DNA from: Natronorubrum halophilum
Lineage (GTDB): Archaea; Halobacteriota; Halobacteria; Halobacteriales; Natrialbaceae
Assembly: GCF_003670115.1 (NCBI RefSeq)
Contig: NZ_QQTY01000001.1
Coordinates: 930,001-994,000 of the forward strand
Direction of reading: 5' to 3'
DNA: 64,000 nucleotides
Notes under the pieces: model-generated
The model's database searches: none
What the model was told of the DNA's origin: nothing
Seen by the model: only the letters and a program-made list of their open reading frames with translations
Shown here: one piece after another, positions 17,948 through 25,605 of the stretch
Layout: each line of letters begins with the position of its first letter
How positions within the stretch are numbered: position 1 is the first letter of the stretch
Translations under genes and position numbers: made by a program

Positions 17948-19318
17948 TTAATCGTCGTCAGTCGCCTCGAGTTGCGGTTTGACGGACATCGTACCGGGCG
18001 TCAACGGTGACGCCATCGGCCCGTCGTCGCCGCCGAAGTCGGGATCGAACAGTTGGAGCGCGGTGTTGATCGTGCTCCAGTCGTCCTCGGCAGCGGCTTC
18101 TCGCAGGCTCTTTGTCGGCGGCGCGAGCAACTGATTGACCAGCGCGTCGGCCATCGCTTCGACGACCTCGCGCTGGTCCGCGGAAAACTGCTCCCCGTCG
18201 AGTTGCGAGAGCGCCGTCTCGAGTTCCCGCTCTTTCATCCGGTTTGCGGACTCGTACATCGCGGCGATCACCTCGTCCGCGCGGGCTCGTTTGTACTGCT
18301 CGCAGAGCAGTTCAAACTCCCTGTCGATCATCGACTCGACCTCGCGAGCCGCGTCGGCGCGTTGCTCGCGGGTTTCCGTGGTAACCGACTCGAGGTCGTC
18401 GAGATCGTAGACGGTCACGGTCGACAGCGAATCGGCGGCCGGAACGACGTCGCGCGGTTGGCCGAGGTCGACGACGACCTGCGCCGGACCGGTGCCGCCG
18501 TCACCGCCCGTGCCATCGTTTTCGCGCCCGCTATCGGCGCTCTCGAGCTGTCGCGGCTCGAGCACCGGCTCCGCGCTTCCGGTTGCCGTGATGACGACGT
18601 CGACCTCGCTCGCGACGGTGTCGAGCGCCTCCAGGGGCACGGCGTCGGCCGCCGCCTCGAGTTCGCTCGCGAGGTGTTCGGCGTGTGAGACGGTTCGGTT
18701 CGCGACGACGACGGTCCCAACGCCGGCGTCCGCGAGACTGCGAGCGGCGAGTCGTCCCATCTCGCCGGCCCCGACGACGAGGGCGGTGGCCCCCTCGAGC
18801 GGAACGTCCCGGGCGGCGAGCGTCGTCGCCGCCGAGCCGAGCGAGACGACGCCCTCGTTGATCCCGGTCTCGGTACGGGCGCGCTCGCCGACGTGGATCG
18901 CCTTCGTCACGGCGGCCTCGAGCATCTTCCCGATGCCGCCGGCGTTGCGGGCGTCCTCGTAGGCCGTTCGGACCTGTCCGATGATCTGGTCCTCGCCGAG
19001 GACGACCGACTCGAGTCCGGATGCGACGCATAGCAGGTGGTGGAGGCTCTCGTCGTGGTCCGTCAGGACGACCGCATCGTCGTCGACCGGCGCGAAAAAT
19101 TCCTCGAGGGCGGCCCGTCCGACGTCGGCGTCGGTGCCGACGACGTAGGCTTCGACCCGGTTGCACGTCGAGAGCACGTACGCCTCTTCGACCGCCGGGA
19201 CGGAACAGAGGTCGGCGACGCCGGCCCGCTGGCTCTCGGGGCTGGCAGCGGCGAGATCGTCGACGCTGCCGCTCTCGTGAGTTACTCGACCAGCGGTCAC
19301 GACCCCGGCCGGAATCAC
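17948..19318 (-). CDS. hemA: Glutamyl-tRNA reductase
   Basis: 456 residues; makes glutamate-1-semialdehyde from Glu-tRNA, the first step of tetrapyrrole synthesis. The catalytic Cys is in VLSTCNRVEAYV, with GEDQIIGQVRTAYEDAR after it, the NADPH site GAGEMGRLAARSLADAG, and the C-terminal dimerisation helix (MYESANRMKERELETALSQL). The GTG start overlaps the upstream stop codon by 4 bases (GTGA), so it is coupled to precorrin-2 dehydrogenase. A haloarchaeal acidic insert (ESADSGRENDGTGGDGGTGP) precedes the dimerisation part. Confidence 0.96.
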   Translation of the reverse strand: MIPAGVVTAGRVTHESGSVDDLAAASPESQRAGVADLCSVPAVEEAYVLSTCNRVEAYVVGTDADVGRAALEEFFAPVDDDAVVLTDHDESLHHLLCVASGLESVVLGEDQIIGQVRTAYEDARNAGGIGKMLEAAVTKAIHVGERARTETGINEGVVSLGSAATTLAARDVPLEGATALVVGAGEMGRLAARSLADAGVGTVVVANRTVSHAEHLASELEAAADAVPLEALDTVASEVDVVITATGSAEPVLEPRQLESADSGRENDGTGGDGGTGPAQVVVDLGQPRDVVPAADSLSTVTVYDLDDLESVTTETREQRADAAREVESMIDREFELLCEQYKRARADEVIAAMYESANRMKERELETALSQLDGEQFSADQREVVEAMADALVNQLLAPPTKSLREAAAEDDWSTINTALQLFDPDFGGDDGPMASPLTPGTMSVKPQLEATDDD

Positions 19319-19971
19319 GGCCGGTCACCCCCGTGGGGCAGTTCCTCGGCCAGCACGTCCTCGATCACTTGCTCACAGTTAGGAGTACCCGTACGTAAAG
19401 CTGTCCAAAGGGCCGGGGAATTGACGACATCGGTGACGATCTGCCGTCGTCGCTCGGGCGGAACGTCCCGCGCTTTGAGCTCCGTCCGGAGCCGTCCGCA
19501 GACCGTCGCCATCTCGCCCGCTCCCGAGAGCGTCTCCTCGAGTTCCGCTCGGAGGTGCTTGCTCAGCGCGGGCGCGGTTCCGCCGGTTGCGATCGAAACG
19601 ACTACCGGGTCCTCGCGCACGGTCGCCGGAACCACCACGCTACCGGAATCGCGTCCGCCCGCCCGATCCGCGCGGTTGACGAGCACCCCGCGGTCTCGAG
19701 CGGCGTCGGCGACGGCCTCGTTGACCGCCTCGTCGTCCGTCGCGGCGACGACCAGAGCGGGCGCAGTCCGCTCGAGCCAGTCGGCGACATCGGCCGGTTC
19801 CGGCGCGGATTTTATCAGTTCGGCGCCGCCAAAGTCCAGATCGGCGAACTCGGGGCTGACGACGAGCACCTCGGCTTCGCGAGCGAACCGTCGGGCCTTT
19901 CGAGCACCGACCGGACCGCCGCCGAAGACGAGTACCGTCGCATCCGTGAAATCGTGCAAGAGTGGGATCAT
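19315..19971 (-). CDS. Precorrin-2 dehydrogenase/sirohydrochlorin ferrochelatase (Met8/SirC type)
   Basis: 218 residues. The NAD-binding motif is VLVFGGGPVGARKARRF, and the active-site region reads VVVSIATGGTAPALSKHLRA. The protein oxidises precorrin-2 to sirohydrochlorin; whether it also inserts iron is not clear from sequence. It lies between ahbAB (30 bases upstream) and hemA (4-base overlap). Confidence 0.93.
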   Translation of the reverse strand: MIPLLHDFTDATVLVFGGGPVGARKARRFAREAEVLVVSPEFADLDFGGAELIKSAPEPADVADWLERTAPALVVAATDDEAVNEAVADAARDRGVLVNRADRAGGRDSGSVVVPATVREDPVVVSIATGGTAPALSKHLRAELEETLSGAGEMATVCGRLRTELKARDVPPERRRQIVTDVVNSPALWTALRTGTPNCEQVIEDVLAEELPHGGDRP

Positions 19972-20001
19972 GCTGGGAAGTGGGCCATCGACCGTGGGTG
20001 G

Positions 20002-21081
20002 TTACTCGGATTCGGTGTTGGCTTCAGCGCGCTCGTCCAACCGAATGCCCGTCTTCTTCAGTATTTGCGTCGAGAACAGCGAGTCCCAGTCGTCGTCTGT
20101 GACGTCCCAGTAGTCGGCCATGGTGTCTCGAACCTGGTCGATGCGCTGTCGGCTCTCTTCCTCGCTGCGGCCGTGGGTCATCGCGAAGAAGTTGTACGGC
20201 CAGACGCCCTCGTGGCGCGGCCGCCGGTAGCAGTGCGTGACGAAGGGCAGGGCGGCGACCGCCGGGCCGACCTCCTCCACGAGGTCGTCCGGGACGTTCC
20301 AGACCGTCATTCCGTTCTCCGTGTAGCCCAGCGCGTAGTGGTTCGGGACGACGCCGATCCGGCGGATTTTTCCCGCCCGCTCGAATCGGTTGATCGTCTC
20401 GATGACCCACCGCGTCTCCTGGCCGATGGCGTCGGCCACGTCCGCGTACGGCGTTTCGGTGAGGGGAAGTCCGCCCTGGACCTCGAGGACGAGATCGCGT
20501 TCGGCCGGCGTCAGCGCGGATCTGCCCGTCGAGGGGACGTCGGGTCCCAGGTCGGTGCAGTCGATACCCGCGCTCGCACCGTCCTCGCCGTCGAGGGGGC
20601 CGTCGACGTAAAACTTCGCCTCGACGCGAAACTCCTGTTCCTTCGGGAGGTTGTACGTCTCCTGGCCGGTCTCGGCTTCGATCTCCGCGAGCACTTCGTC
20701 GACTCGCTCCTCGTCGGCGACGCTGAGGACGAACCAGACGTTCAGGTGCGGGTGCTCGCGCTCGTAGTTGTGGGCCACCTCGCGGTAGGCGTTGACCTGC
20801 TCGACGACCTCGTCGAACCGGTCTTCGGGTGCGTGCATGGCTACCAGCGTCGCCGCGCCGCCGATCTCCTGGGCGTTGACGAGCGGGCCGAATCGCGAGA
20901 GGACCCCGCGCTCGTCGAGGTCTCGAATCGTCTCGAGCAGTTCGGTGGCGTCGATGTCGACCCCGCGATCGCACATAGCGGCTGCGGCGGGCTCGAAGGG
21001 ACGCTCCACGACGGGAAACCCGCCCTGATAGGCGTTGACGACCGCCCGTTCGCGCTCGGTCAGGTCGACGTCCGTGGTCAT
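20002..21081 (-). CDS. ahbAB: Siroheme decarboxylase, AhbA-AhbB fusion (Lrp/AsnC-like)
   Basis: 359 residues made of two repeats of the AsnC-like siroheme decarboxylase unit: TERERAVVNAYQGGFPVVER opens the first and TPAERDLVLEVQGGLPLTET the second, each with a winged helix and an RAM-like domain. The tail HCYRRPRHEGVWPYNFFAMTHGRSEEE matches the family pattern around its haem pocket. It converts siroheme to didecarboxysiroheme in the archaeal haem route. Bacterial and other archaeal versions are two separate proteins; here the subunits are one chain. A TATA box (21106-21114) 28 bases upstream starts the ahbAB-SIR-hemA unit. Confidence 0.92.
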   Translation of the reverse strand: MTTDVDLTERERAVVNAYQGGFPVVERPFEPAAAAMCDRGVDIDATELLETIRDLDERGVLSRFGPLVNAQEIGGAATLVAMHAPEDRFDEVVEQVNAYREVAHNYEREHPHLNVWFVLSVADEERVDEVLAEIEAETGQETYNLPKEQEFRVEAKFYVDGPLDGEDGASAGIDCTDLGPDVPSTGRSALTPAERDLVLEVQGGLPLTETPYADVADAIGQETRWVIETINRFERAGKIRRIGVVPNHYALGYTENGMTVWNVPDDLVEEVGPAVAALPFVTHCYRRPRHEGVWPYNFFAMTHGRSEEESRQRIDQVRDTMADYWDVTDDDWDSLFSTQILKKTGIRLDERAEANTESE

Positions 21082-21667: not shown

Positions 21668-21762
21668 TGCTCGAGCCGAGGGCTCCCGAACGGATAGCCG
21701 TCACGATTTCCCGGGCGGACACTCACCGGAACGGAACGTTGTGCCGTGATAGGACACGCAAA

Positions 21763-21771
21763 ACACATAGG
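21763..21771 (+). promoter_or_regulatory. TATA box of uppS
   Basis: acacatagg lies about 27 bases before ATG 21795 and supports this start (MKRWLRQRVDAAYEG) over an earlier in-frame ATG at 21777. Confidence 0.5.
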
Positions 21772-21794: not shown

Positions 21795-22748
21795 ATGAAG
21801 CGGTGGCTCCGTCAGCGCGTCGATGCGGCCTACGAAGGGGTGCTCTCGAGAGAGATTTCGGGCGCGCCGACCCACGTTGCGGTGATCCAGGACGGGAACC
21901 GCCGATACGCCCGACGGAACGGAGAAGCCGCCCACGACGGACACCGCCAGGGTGCGCAGACGACCGAGCACGTCCTCGAGTGGTGTCAGGATATCGGCGT
22001 CGAGGAACTGACGCTGTACACGTTTTCGACGGAGAACTTCGATCGATCGGACGAGGAGAACGAAGCGCTGTTTGATCTCCTCTGTGAGAAGCTTCGACAG
22101 TTCGCCGACGCCGAGCGCGTCCACGACAACGAGGTGCAGATCCGGGCGATCGGCGAGGTCGAAAAGCTTCCCCAGCGCGTTCGCGACGCCGTCGACTACG
22201 CCGAACGACGTACTCGCGACCACGGCCAATTCGTCCTCAACATCGCCCTCGCGTACGGCGGTCGCTCGCAGTTGCTCGAGGCGGTCCACGACGTCGCCAC
22301 CGACGTTCAGGCGGGGAGCCTCGAGCCCGACGAAATCGACGTCGAGACGATCGAGGACCGGCTGTACGATCAGCCGGTTCGCGACGTCGACCTGATCATC
22401 CGGACGGGCGGTGACGAGCGGACCTCGAACTTCCTGCCGTGGCACGCGAACGGAAACGAAGCCGCCGTCTTCTTCTGTACGCCCTACTGGCCGGAGTTCT
22501 CGAAAACGGACTTCCTTCGGGGCATTCGAACCTACGAACACCGCGAGGAATCGTGGCGACGGACCCGCGCTCGGCGGGCGATCGCCCTCCTCGGGGCGAT
22601 CAGCGATCCCGAACTCGTCGAGGCCAAATCGATCGTCGAGCGGTTCCGCGACTCGCTTCCGACGTCCGAACAGCCCGACCCGGGGGACCTAGACGACGAA
22701 AGCGAACAGGTCGACGGGATCGACTCGAGCGGACGGGCCGCCGACTGA
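21795..22748 (+). CDS. uppS: Cis-prenyltransferase (polyprenyl/undecaprenyl diphosphate synthase), catalytic subunit
   Basis: 317 residues. Makes long-chain polyprenyl diphosphate by cis addition of isoprene units, giving dolichol for N-glycosylation. The catalytic Asp sits in AVIQDGNRRYARR; LTLYTFSTENF, NIALAYGGRSQLLEAV and IIRTGGDERTSNFLPW are further family motifs, and PYWPEFSKTDFLRGI supplies the C-terminal Mg/substrate part. It lacks the usual C-terminal R-x-G motif; the chain ends in an acidic extension. The paralogue at 23357 keeps that motif. Confidence 0.95.
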   Translation: MKRWLRQRVDAAYEGVLSREISGAPTHVAVIQDGNRRYARRNGEAAHDGHRQGAQTTEHVLEWCQDIGVEELTLYTFSTENFDRSDEENEALFDLLCEKLRQFADAERVHDNEVQIRAIGEVEKLPQRVRDAVDYAERRTRDHGQFVLNIALAYGGRSQLLEAVHDVATDVQAGSLEPDEIDVETIEDRLYDQPVRDVDLIIRTGGDERTSNFLPWHANGNEAAVFFCTPYWPEFSKTDFLRGIRTYEHREESWRRTRARRAIALLGAISDPELVEAKSIVERFRDSLPTSEQPDPGDLDDESEQVDGIDSSGRAAD

Positions 22749-22866
22749 ACGGGCGAACCCCACGGAGCGCAGTCGGTTGGCTGTGGTCGGCGTCCGACTT
22801 CCGCGCTTCGAGCGAAGTGTCCGTTCGGAGCCTGTACCGTCTGTCTACGGCACTCACCGCAAAGTC

Positions 22867-22874
22867 TTTATATA
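22867..22874 (+). promoter_or_regulatory. TATA box of the 22898 HTH gene
   Basis: tttatata in a strongly AT-rich patch (22861-22890), 27 bases before ATG 22898, implying a leaderless mRNA. Confidence 0.6.
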
Positions 22875-22897
22875 TTAATAATTTTATATCAAGGAGA

Positions 22898-23284
22898 ATG
22901 TCACAACCACACCTCTCCATCGACGTCGATCGGTTCACGCAGCGCACTGGCCTCGCGGTCGAGACCGCGTACGCACTGCTCGCGTCGTCGCACACACGGC
23001 TCACGCTACGCGCCCTCTCGAGGTGTGAGCCGCCCGTGACCCTCGACCGGCTAGCGGCGGCAGTTGCGCAGTTGGACGCCGAGTTGCGCCGGTCGGCGGC
23101 CCGTATCCTGCTCGTACACGTGACCCTTCCCAAACTCGAGGAGTACGGCGTCCTCGAGTACGAACTGCGTTCGAATGGCTTGCAGCTAGAAGGGCCCGTC
23201 GTCGGGCTCGACGAGCCCCTCGGAGCGGGTCCGGAGTTACGCGACCCGGCCGAGTGGATCGAGCCCCAGGATTCCGTCGACTAG
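22898..23284 (+). CDS. Winged-helix HTH protein (DUF7344-like)
   Basis: 128 residues, MSQPHLSIDVDRFTQRTGLA onward. The segment ALLASSHTRLTLRALSRCEP followed by PVTLDRLAAAVAQLD and LVHVTLPKLEEYGVLEYELR reads as a winged helix of the type common in haloarchaea. Likely a small DNA-binding regulator, perhaps of the flanking prenyltransferase genes; this is inferred from position only. The aaggag just before the ATG is too close to work as a ribosome site. Confidence 0.7.
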   Translation: MSQPHLSIDVDRFTQRTGLAVETAYALLASSHTRLTLRALSRCEPPVTLDRLAAAVAQLDAELRRSAARILLVHVTLPKLEEYGVLEYELRSNGLQLEGPVVGLDEPLGAGPELRDPAEWIEPQDSVD

Positions 23285-23356
23285 CGTGTTTCGGTCGGCG
23301 GCGGTACCACTCCCGTCCGTGATCCGTTCTCACGACCACGTCGGAATGAACGCTCG

Positions 23357-23962
23357 CTATCGGCCGAACCGTCGCGACCGGTTGCAGTACTCCCTGACCG
23401 CCCGTAAGAAGTCCCGTTTCCGGAAATCACGCCAGTTAACGTCCGTAAAGTAGAGCTCCGAGTAGACCGACTGCCAGATCATGAAATCGGAGAGTCGTTC
23501 TGCGCCGGTCTTGATCACGAGGTCCGGTTCGGACGGAAAAATGAGGTGTTCTTCGACCCGCTCGTCGTCGATCTCGTCGGGTTCGAGTTCGCGCGTTTCG
23601 ACGCGTTCCGCGAGCGTTCGGACCGCGCTGGTAAACTCGTGTTTGCCCCCGAGACCGATGCCGATCCGGATCGGGGCGTCCGCGCGGGTCCGATCCGCCG
23701 GCCCGCGAACGGCCACCTCGTGAGGGGCCTCGAGCGTCTCGAGTTCGCGCTGCAAGGCAGGGACCGCCGCGGCGTCGAGGACGCTGACGTAGACGGTGAC
23801 CTGCGAGGCGTACTCGAACGCCCACGCGAAGAAGTCCGTGAGCGTTTCGTAGGCCCCTCGCTCGAGCAGGTCGCGCTCGGTAATCACGAGCGCGACGTGG
23901 TCGGGGCTCTCGGCGCCGTGGCGGCGAATTCGAAGAGCGAGGTACCGTTCGTACAGTCCCAC
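23357..23962 (-). CDS. Cis-prenyltransferase paralogue without the catalytic motif (NgBR-like subunit)
   Basis: 201 residues. It aligns with the uppS product: HVALVITERDLLERGAYETL replaces the catalytic DGNRR segment, IGIGLGGKHEFTSAVRTLAE parallels NIALAYGGRSQLLEAV, and LVIKTGAERLSDFMIWQS parallels the RTGGDERTSNF motif. The Asp of the catalytic motif is absent. It ends with NRSRRFGR, matching the R-x-G motif that non-catalytic NgBR subunits supply. Start at GTG 23962 (GLYERYLALRIRRHG), supported by a TATA box at 23984-23992. Probable regulatory partner of uppS; no activity expected alone. Confidence 0.85.
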   Translation of the reverse strand: MGLYERYLALRIRRHGAESPDHVALVITERDLLERGAYETLTDFFAWAFEYASQVTVYVSVLDAAAVPALQRELETLEAPHEVAVRGPADRTRADAPIRIGIGLGGKHEFTSAVRTLAERVETRELEPDEIDDERVEEHLIFPSEPDLVIKTGAERLSDFMIWQSVYSELYFTDVNWRDFRKRDFLRAVREYCNRSRRFGR

Positions 23963-23983: not shown

Positions 23984-23992
23984 TACTATAGG
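23984..23992 (-). promoter_or_regulatory. TATA box of the prenyltransferase paralogue
   Basis: The minus strand reads cctatagta, centred about 26 bases before GTG 23962. It supports the shorter N-terminus. Confidence 0.5.
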
Positions 23993-24258
23993 CGTACGGA
24001 TTTCTGTCACCGACAGCAGTTCGGTCGCCGACTTTCGTCCGGCGTCGAGACCGGTCGTGATCGCGGACGGACCGTCACTCGAGTCGACGAGAAGAGCCGG
24101 TTGACATACCGATCACCGCCGCTCCCCGCCGTCGGAGAAGCGCTCGTGACCGGCCGATCCGAACACGGTATCGCGTCTCACTCGGGGAATTCCGCGGCGT
24201 CACCGGTGAACGGAGGTCAAGAACCTTCAAGTAAACGCCACAGAAAGGACTCGATATC

Positions 24259-25605
24259 GTGACAACACCCGTTCGGCGAGCAGGCGTGTTCGCGATCCTC
24301 TGTACGCTCGCACTCGCCGTCCCACTTGGTGGCCCCTGGGTCGGGATCGTCATCGCAGCCGCCATCGTTGTCGGCGCGTTCGCCGTGACCGACGGCCCGC
24401 TCTTCGATCTCCTCGCGTATCCCGGTGACTACGAGGACGGCCGTCTCTACGGGCTCATCACCTTCGCCCTCGCAGCCGTCGCGCTCGGCATCGTTGCGGC
24501 CACGACGTCGATGTCCGTCGCCGTCTTCGTCGGAACCGTCCTCCTCATCGGATACGGGAACCTTGCGGAACAGATCGCTCGCCGTCGGACGGACGACGAC
24601 GTCCTCCGTTCGGGGGCCTTCTGTCTGGTCGCGACCGGCGGTGCCGTCGTCGGACAGACGCTCACACACGAGTTCACCGACAGCATCGGCCCCCTCGAGT
24701 CGGTCGCGTCGACATTCCCCGCGATGATCTTCCTCGGCGCGAGCGGCGCGTTGCTCGCCGCGTTACTCCGTGACGTCCTCCTTTCTCACGACGACCCGAT
24801 CGTGATGCTCGCCGTTGGCCTGCTCTGCTGGCTGCTCGCCGAACTCGAGCCGACCCTCACCACGGCGGGAATCGTCGCGGCACTCGCGATTACCATCGCC
24901 CTCGGCTACGCCTCCTACGCGCTCGAGACGGCCTCGATCGCGGGGATGCTCACCGGAATCCTGCTCGGCCTGCTAACGATCGTTCTCGGCGGATACGGCT
25001 GGTTCGTCGTCCTCATCTCCTTTTTCGGGATCGGCGGCCTCTCGTCGAAATTTCGGTACGAACAGAAAACGGAACTCGGCGTCGCCGAGGACAACAACGG
25101 TGCTCGCGGCAGCGGCAACGTTCTGGGCAACGCCGCCGTCGCGATCGTCGCGGTACTGGGCTACGCGGCGAGTTCGGCGACGCTGTTTCCCGGTGATCCC
25201 GATCCGAACCTGTTTCTGTTCGCGTTTACCGGCTCCGTCGCGACCGCGATGAGCGACACCCTCTCGAGCGAGATCGGGAGCGTCTTCGAGACGCCGCGGC
25301 TGATCACCACCTTAGAGCCCGTCGAACCCGGCACCGACGGTGGCGTCACGTGGCAAGGCGAGATCGCCGGTCTCGCGGGCGCAGCCGTCGTTGGCGGCAT
25401 CTCCTACGCGCTCTTTCCGGAGGTCACCGCCGTCGGTGCGGCGATCATCGTCGCCGCCGGTATCGTCGGCATGACCGTCGACAGCCTCCTCGGCGCGACG
25501 CTCGAGGGGAACGTCCTCGGCAACCAGGGCGTCAACTTCCTCGCGACGCTGTCCGGCGCATTGATCTGTGCGCTGCTCGTGCTTTCGTTCGCGATGCTCG
25601 GGTAG
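24259..25605 (+). CDS. DUF92 integral membrane protein (phytol phosphate kinase-like)
   Basis: 448 residues with about 11-12 hydrophobic helices. The family signature region reads GGLSSKFRYEQKTELG followed by GSGNVLGNAAV, and SVATAMSDTLSSEIGSVF and TVDSLLGATLEGNVLG lie farther on. DUF92 includes the plant phytyl-phosphate kinase VTE6, so lipid-phosphate phosphorylation is the leading guess. Its position beside two cis-prenyltransferase genes agrees with polyprenyl phosphate metabolism. GTG start at 24259; a TATA-like segment lies about 28 bases upstream. Confidence 0.85.
   Translation: MTTPVRRAGVFAILCTLALAVPLGGPWVGIVIAAAIVVGAFAVTDGPLFDLLAYPGDYEDGRLYGLITFALAAVALGIVAATTSMSVAVFVGTVLLIGYGNLAEQIARRRTDDDVLRSGAFCLVATGGAVVGQTLTHEFTDSIGPLESVASTFPAMIFLGASGALLAALLRDVLLSHDDPIVMLAVGLLCWLLAELEPTLTTAGIVAALAITIALGYASYALETASIAGMLTGILLGLLTIVLGGYGWFVVLISFFGIGGLSSKFRYEQKTELGVAEDNNGARGSGNVLGNAAVAIVAVLGYAASSATLFPGDPDPNLFLFAFTGSVATAMSDTLSSEIGSVFETPRLITTLEPVEPGTDGGVTWQGEIAGLAGAAVVGGISYALFPEVTAVGAAIIVAAGIVGMTVDSLLGATLEGNVLGNQGVNFLATLSGALICALLVLSFAMLG

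Follow-up and report, generated by a model that had tools for sequence, protein, structure and literature searches.

A probable two-subunit cis-prenyltransferase encoded by convergent genes in Natronorubrum halophilum

Organization of the locus

Two genes of the cis-prenyltransferase family lie close together in the window, that is, in the whole stretch of 64,000 nucleotides of Natronorubrum halophilum DNA that was analysed. The first, uppS (21795..22748, plus strand), encodes a predicted catalytic subunit of 317 residues. The PF01255 profile covers this protein over its full length (E 1e-68) and its TIGR00055 score is above the cut-off, and it has no C-terminal R-x-G motif. The second gene (23357..23962, minus strand) starts with GTG and encodes a protein of 201 residues, referred to here as the partner. 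Only its C-terminal half is matched by PF01255 (profile positions 108-219, E ~7e-27); this match and the alignments described below point to a non-catalytic subunit. A search of the whole genome found these two PF01255 genes only. Both open reading frames are located where a previous sequence-only reading had placed them, and their starts are upheld by relatives: ATG at 21795 in 49 of 49, and GTG at 23962 in 50 of 50.

The two genes are convergent, with their 3' ends 608 bases apart. This agrees with the earlier description of a spacing of about 600 bases and a small gene in between. Since they are convergent, the genes cannot form one operon, and this possibility was ruled out. The gene in the gap (22898..23284, plus strand) belongs to the DUF7344 family (PF24035, E 5e-7). 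Because no more than 20 of 80 loci showed it, it was rejected as a member of the system, and is probably outside it.

Separate promoters had also been proposed for the two genes, and an AT-rich box approximately 27 bases 5' of the start, conserved for uppS and for the partner, backs this proposal. The conserved upstream box of uppS (CACGCAAAACACATAG / CACACAAGACACATAG; 21755..21770, plus strand) occupies -40 to -25 across 49 relatives, and that of the partner (consensus acCCG.AAcC.gTAt; 23988..24002, minus strand) occupies -40 to -26 across 50. Each is the likely promoter of its gene. The uppS box is strongly conserved and unlike the usual TATA box.

The partner is flanked on its 5' side by a divergent gene for a DUF92 membrane protein (24259..25605, plus strand; PF01940, E 1e-58). 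Upstream of uppS and of a DUF5778 gene, a siroheme decarboxylase-like AsnC/NirDL gene adjoins a CysG-like gene (19315-21081).

Division of the motifs between the two chains

Motifs were scored by alignment to E. coli UppS (from MG1655) in 160 catalytic subunits and 138 partners from the whole phylum. The equivalents of D26, N28, R30, R194, R200, and S202 are each kept in 159-160 of the 160 catalytic subunits. As the earlier reading had claimed, the window UppS retains the catalytic Asp (D33 in QDGNRR, 21888..21905, plus strand), which corresponds to D26 of the E. coli enzyme; this Asp is found in 159 catalytic subunits, and the remaining one has a gap. It was also right that the R-x-G motif is missing from this chain. 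Among the residues listed at the position of G244, Gly is found in none of the 160 proteins, most of which have S-W-R or S-W-Q there. In the window protein, S253-W254-R255 (22551..22559, plus strand) stands at the position of R242-F243-G244, where R-x-G is expected. Three catalytic subunits from other families (L220-L222) are exceptional in having an R-x-G motif one residue out of register. In a homodimeric UppS of the bacterial type, the Asp and R-x-G are on one chain, and this combination is not found in the window UppS. It has instead the Asp loop without a C-terminal R-x-G, which is the pattern of the catalytic subunit of a heteromer.

The extreme C-terminus is Ala-Asp in 62 of 75 haloarchaeal UppS proteins (22740-22745 in the window). 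The linker preceding this tip varies in length and sequence, and the tip itself is conserved.

The partner has the complementary pattern, again in line with the earlier claim. The segment ITERDLL (23864..23884, minus strand) replaces the catalytic loop, and the chain ends in RRFGR, with the R-x-G motif (RRFG) encoded at 23363..23374 (minus strand). The equivalents of R239, R241, R242, and G244 are all kept in 138 of 138 partners, and the D26-N28-R30 set is kept in none of them. This lack of the catalytic loop combined with a terminal R-x-G is the pattern of the second subunit of a heteromer.

Loss of the catalytic segment might suggest a pseudogene copy in decay. Its conservation refutes this explanation, which is almost certainly wrong: the identity across haloarchaeal genera is 68-92%, R-x-G is invariant, and so is ITERDLL (I27-L33) in the haloarchaeal alignment of 29 partners. 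This invariance means that the segment has been kept by selection and has not decayed. Outside the haloarchaea, in the same phylum, the replacing loop is variable, often with a D-[LIM] core. Some partners carry an insertion of approximately 18 residues (genus g22, e.g., L164 and L165; gene length of 660 versus approximately 606 bases).

Co-occurrence, gene order, and descent

The two genes are found together. Both are present in 193 of 194 Halobacteria genomes, and the case that the sequence-only reading had named as refuting, a paralogue missing from many genomes with uppS, did not arise. A partner-grade match is present in all 194 (E <= 6.5e-36); the sole genome without a full catalytic gene, G072, is a fragmented draft. 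In the rest of the phylum, both genes are present in 116 of the 118 genomes having any family member. In the other two (G278 and G313), which are fragmented assemblies, 87-89% complete, a catalytic gene was detected but no partner. No PF01255 gene was found in five genomes of the family f17 (G200, G209, G218, G227, and G234) or in one further genome of the phylum survey, which is 76% complete.

Three family genes are present in seven Halobacteria genomes. In six of these (G061, G068, G098, G105, G148, and G149), a single partner accompanies two catalytic genes, which recalls yeast, where one Nus1 serves both Rer2 and Srt1 (PMC7839719). In G002, the third member (L210) is a very divergent cis-prenyltransferase with IPDGHRRY and the C-terminus RRNEGR.

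This distribution bears on the possibility of a homodimeric UppS that needs no second chain, in which some other residue has taken over from R-x-G and the partner does no more than regulate, anchor, or stabilize it. UppS has the full set of substrate-binding residues, and some single plant cis-prenyltransferases rescue a yeast rer2 mutant without a co-expressed partner (PMC8904820). However, R-x-G is never lost in the partner, the catalytic subunit has none in register, and both genes are kept together throughout the phylum. We therefore regard a self-sufficient UppS as improbable. A still less probable explanation gives the partner, as an inactive paralogue, an unrelated role, for example polyprenyl lipid binding or self-pairing. 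Although DUF92, not UppS, is the constant neighbour of the partner in a few loci, no genome family keeping the partner without UppS was seen. In addition, conservation of the partner peaks in the C-terminal half, which in the known enzymes forms the dimer contact and the edge of the active site.

The gene order is also conserved. In the named haloarchaeal loci, uppS and the partner are close together in approximately 75 of 80, tail-to-tail in most. Outside Halobacteria, 12 of 19 families have the pair within 5 kb in tail-to-tail order, and where the distance is less than 20 kb, this order holds in 41 of 42 genomes. The order is ancestral. The rates of UppS and the partner covary with a partial r of 0.30, a value within the range of the control pairs (DUF92, DnaG, and DUF5778).

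No gene is found beside the partner more constantly than the divergent DUF92 gene, which adjoins it in 78 of 80 loci. The DUF92 family includes plant VTE6. A phytyl-phosphate kinase role has been reported for VTE6 (PMC9782597), and on this basis it is a reasonable guess, and no more, that the DUF92 protein might be a polyprenyl-phosphate enzyme.

In a tree of 112 sequences (a quick search, for which the program noted long branches), the partners form one group with an SH-aLRT value of 100 and the catalytic subunits form another with a value of 92. The MM_0014 group and the E. coli enzyme fall apart from both. Since each subunit forms its own clade, the split is old and of single origin, predating the radiation of the phylum.

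According to PMC8131916, Methanosarcina mazei carries MM_0014, a homodimer encoded by a single gene, and a heteromeric cis-prenyltransferase with C45-50 products that is made up of two paralogues, MM_0618 and MM_1083 (citing Emi et al. 2019). MM_0014, which belongs to the same superfamily and is likewise archaeal, differs from the window pair in being a one-gene enzyme of another tree group. A Methanosarcina-like genome (G299, genus g113) has three family members: one MM_0014-like, one in the catalytic clade, and one in the partner clade. The first is near-identical to MM_0014 over all 219 residues (E 3.4e-137). By elimination and by group membership, the window pair would be orthologous to MM_0618/MM_1083, and would share common descent with this biochemically proven archaeal pair. 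With the proteins of Methanosarcina-like genomes, UppS is 48-49% identical over approximately 260 residues and the partner 37% over 215 residues. There are also differences. The two genes are apart in the Methanosarcina-like family and tail-to-tail in the haloarchaeon, and an invariant ITERDLL loop is a trait of the haloarchaeal partner.

Relation to known enzymes and the proposed heteromer

The predicted model of UppS (pLDDT 77.5) gave human DHDDS (7pax_A) as the top match in a structure search. Their alignment spans 300 columns and takes in the C-terminal helices found in UppS in the place of R-x-G. The model of the partner (pLDDT 81, low at residues 156-167) has the cis-prenyltransferase fold. 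Every listed match was an ordinary cis-prenyltransferase or DHDDS. Given these matches and its moderate quality, the model does not discriminate between an NgBR-like and a UppS-like partner.

The division of labour itself is equal to that of human DHDDS/NgBR (NUS1) and yeast Rer2-Srt1/Nus1, in which the catalytic chain lacks R-x-G and the non-catalytic chain has the C-terminal motif. The likeness to DHDDS/NgBR and to the Methanosarcina heteromer proposed in the earlier reading is thus borne out by the complementary motif loss, together with the probable orthology to the M. mazei pair. Bacterial UppS (E. coli IspU, a homodimer) shares the fold and the catalytic residues with haloarchaeal UppS, but bears on one chain the Asp and R-x-G that the haloarchaeon has on two.

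The partner was also compared with NUS1. The profile of haloarchaeal partners aligns with NUS1 residues 17-202 (E 4e-4), and a profile search with the N-terminal half of the partner alone did not find NUS1. With the profile built from diverse partners, NUS1 aligns along almost all of its length at an E value of 4.5e-13, versus 1e-33 for bacterial UppS. The haloarchaeal partner is closer in sequence to bacterial UppS, and, unlike NgBR/Nus1, has no membrane-anchoring N-terminal extension. Because bacterial UppS outscores NUS1 with the diverse profile, a special kinship with NgBR is unsupported. Strict orthology of the partner to NgBR/Nus1 was rejected on this ground and because its N-terminal half misses NUS1. 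The nearly full-length match of NUS1 could be read as common ancestry: a single ancestral split would have given rise to eukaryotic NgBR/Nus1 and to the non-catalytic subunit of archaea, and eukaryotes would have inherited the two-subunit dolichol enzyme from archaea. As the match is not preferential, we consider this history doubtful.

The motif split, the co-occurrence, the conserved gene order, and the predicted fold of each chain support a split enzyme. We consider it very probable that uppS and the partner encode one heteromeric cis-prenyltransferase, for which we infer the complex, the dependence of activity on the partner, and the product. UppS would bind both substrates, isopentenyl diphosphate and the allylic primer, and carry out the condensation, with the partner packed on it to complete the dimer. 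As is established for the family (PMC13247534, citing Grabinska 2017 and Edani 2020; PMC7839719), the arginine of R-x-G helps to bind isopentenyl diphosphate, and in heteromers the second chain supplies this arginine in trans. The C-terminal R-x-G of the partner would reach into the active site of UppS and keep isopentenyl diphosphate in place, the part that NgBR plays for DHDDS. Since the cell has no further cis-prenyltransferase, the partner is the only source from which UppS can get this arginine. The polyprenyl diphosphate formed would be converted to dolichol phosphate, the glycan carrier, which in Haloferax volcanii is C55/C60 (PMC3827465).

The sequence-only reading had described the pair as a haloarchaeal heteromer that would set dolichol chain length; a part of the partner itself in setting this length is conjectural. 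That the pair makes up one split enzyme is strengthened by the motif loss, the co-occurrence, the lack of any other cis-prenyltransferase, the gene order, and the orthology. The arrangement did not arise separately in the haloarchaea: it is common to the phylum, and the split enzyme seems to be the haloarchaeal version of a phylum-wide one. The split arrangement is already known from Methanosarcina. Added here are its near-universality in the haloarchaea and the phylum, its single origin and ancestral gene order, and the link to DUF92. No report of a haloarchaeal heteromeric cis-prenyltransferase was found in the literature searched, from which subscription papers were mostly absent.

In the haloarchaea, where N-glycosylation is well studied, the synthase of the dolichol chain would thereby be assigned to a two-gene enzyme. 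The partner gene, which could readily be mistaken for a truncated or additional uppS, probably encodes a half that this enzyme requires. As the split is shared phylum-wide, the haloarchaea may provide a tractable setting for studying how the non-catalytic subunit works and how the human DHDDS/NgBR arrangement arose.
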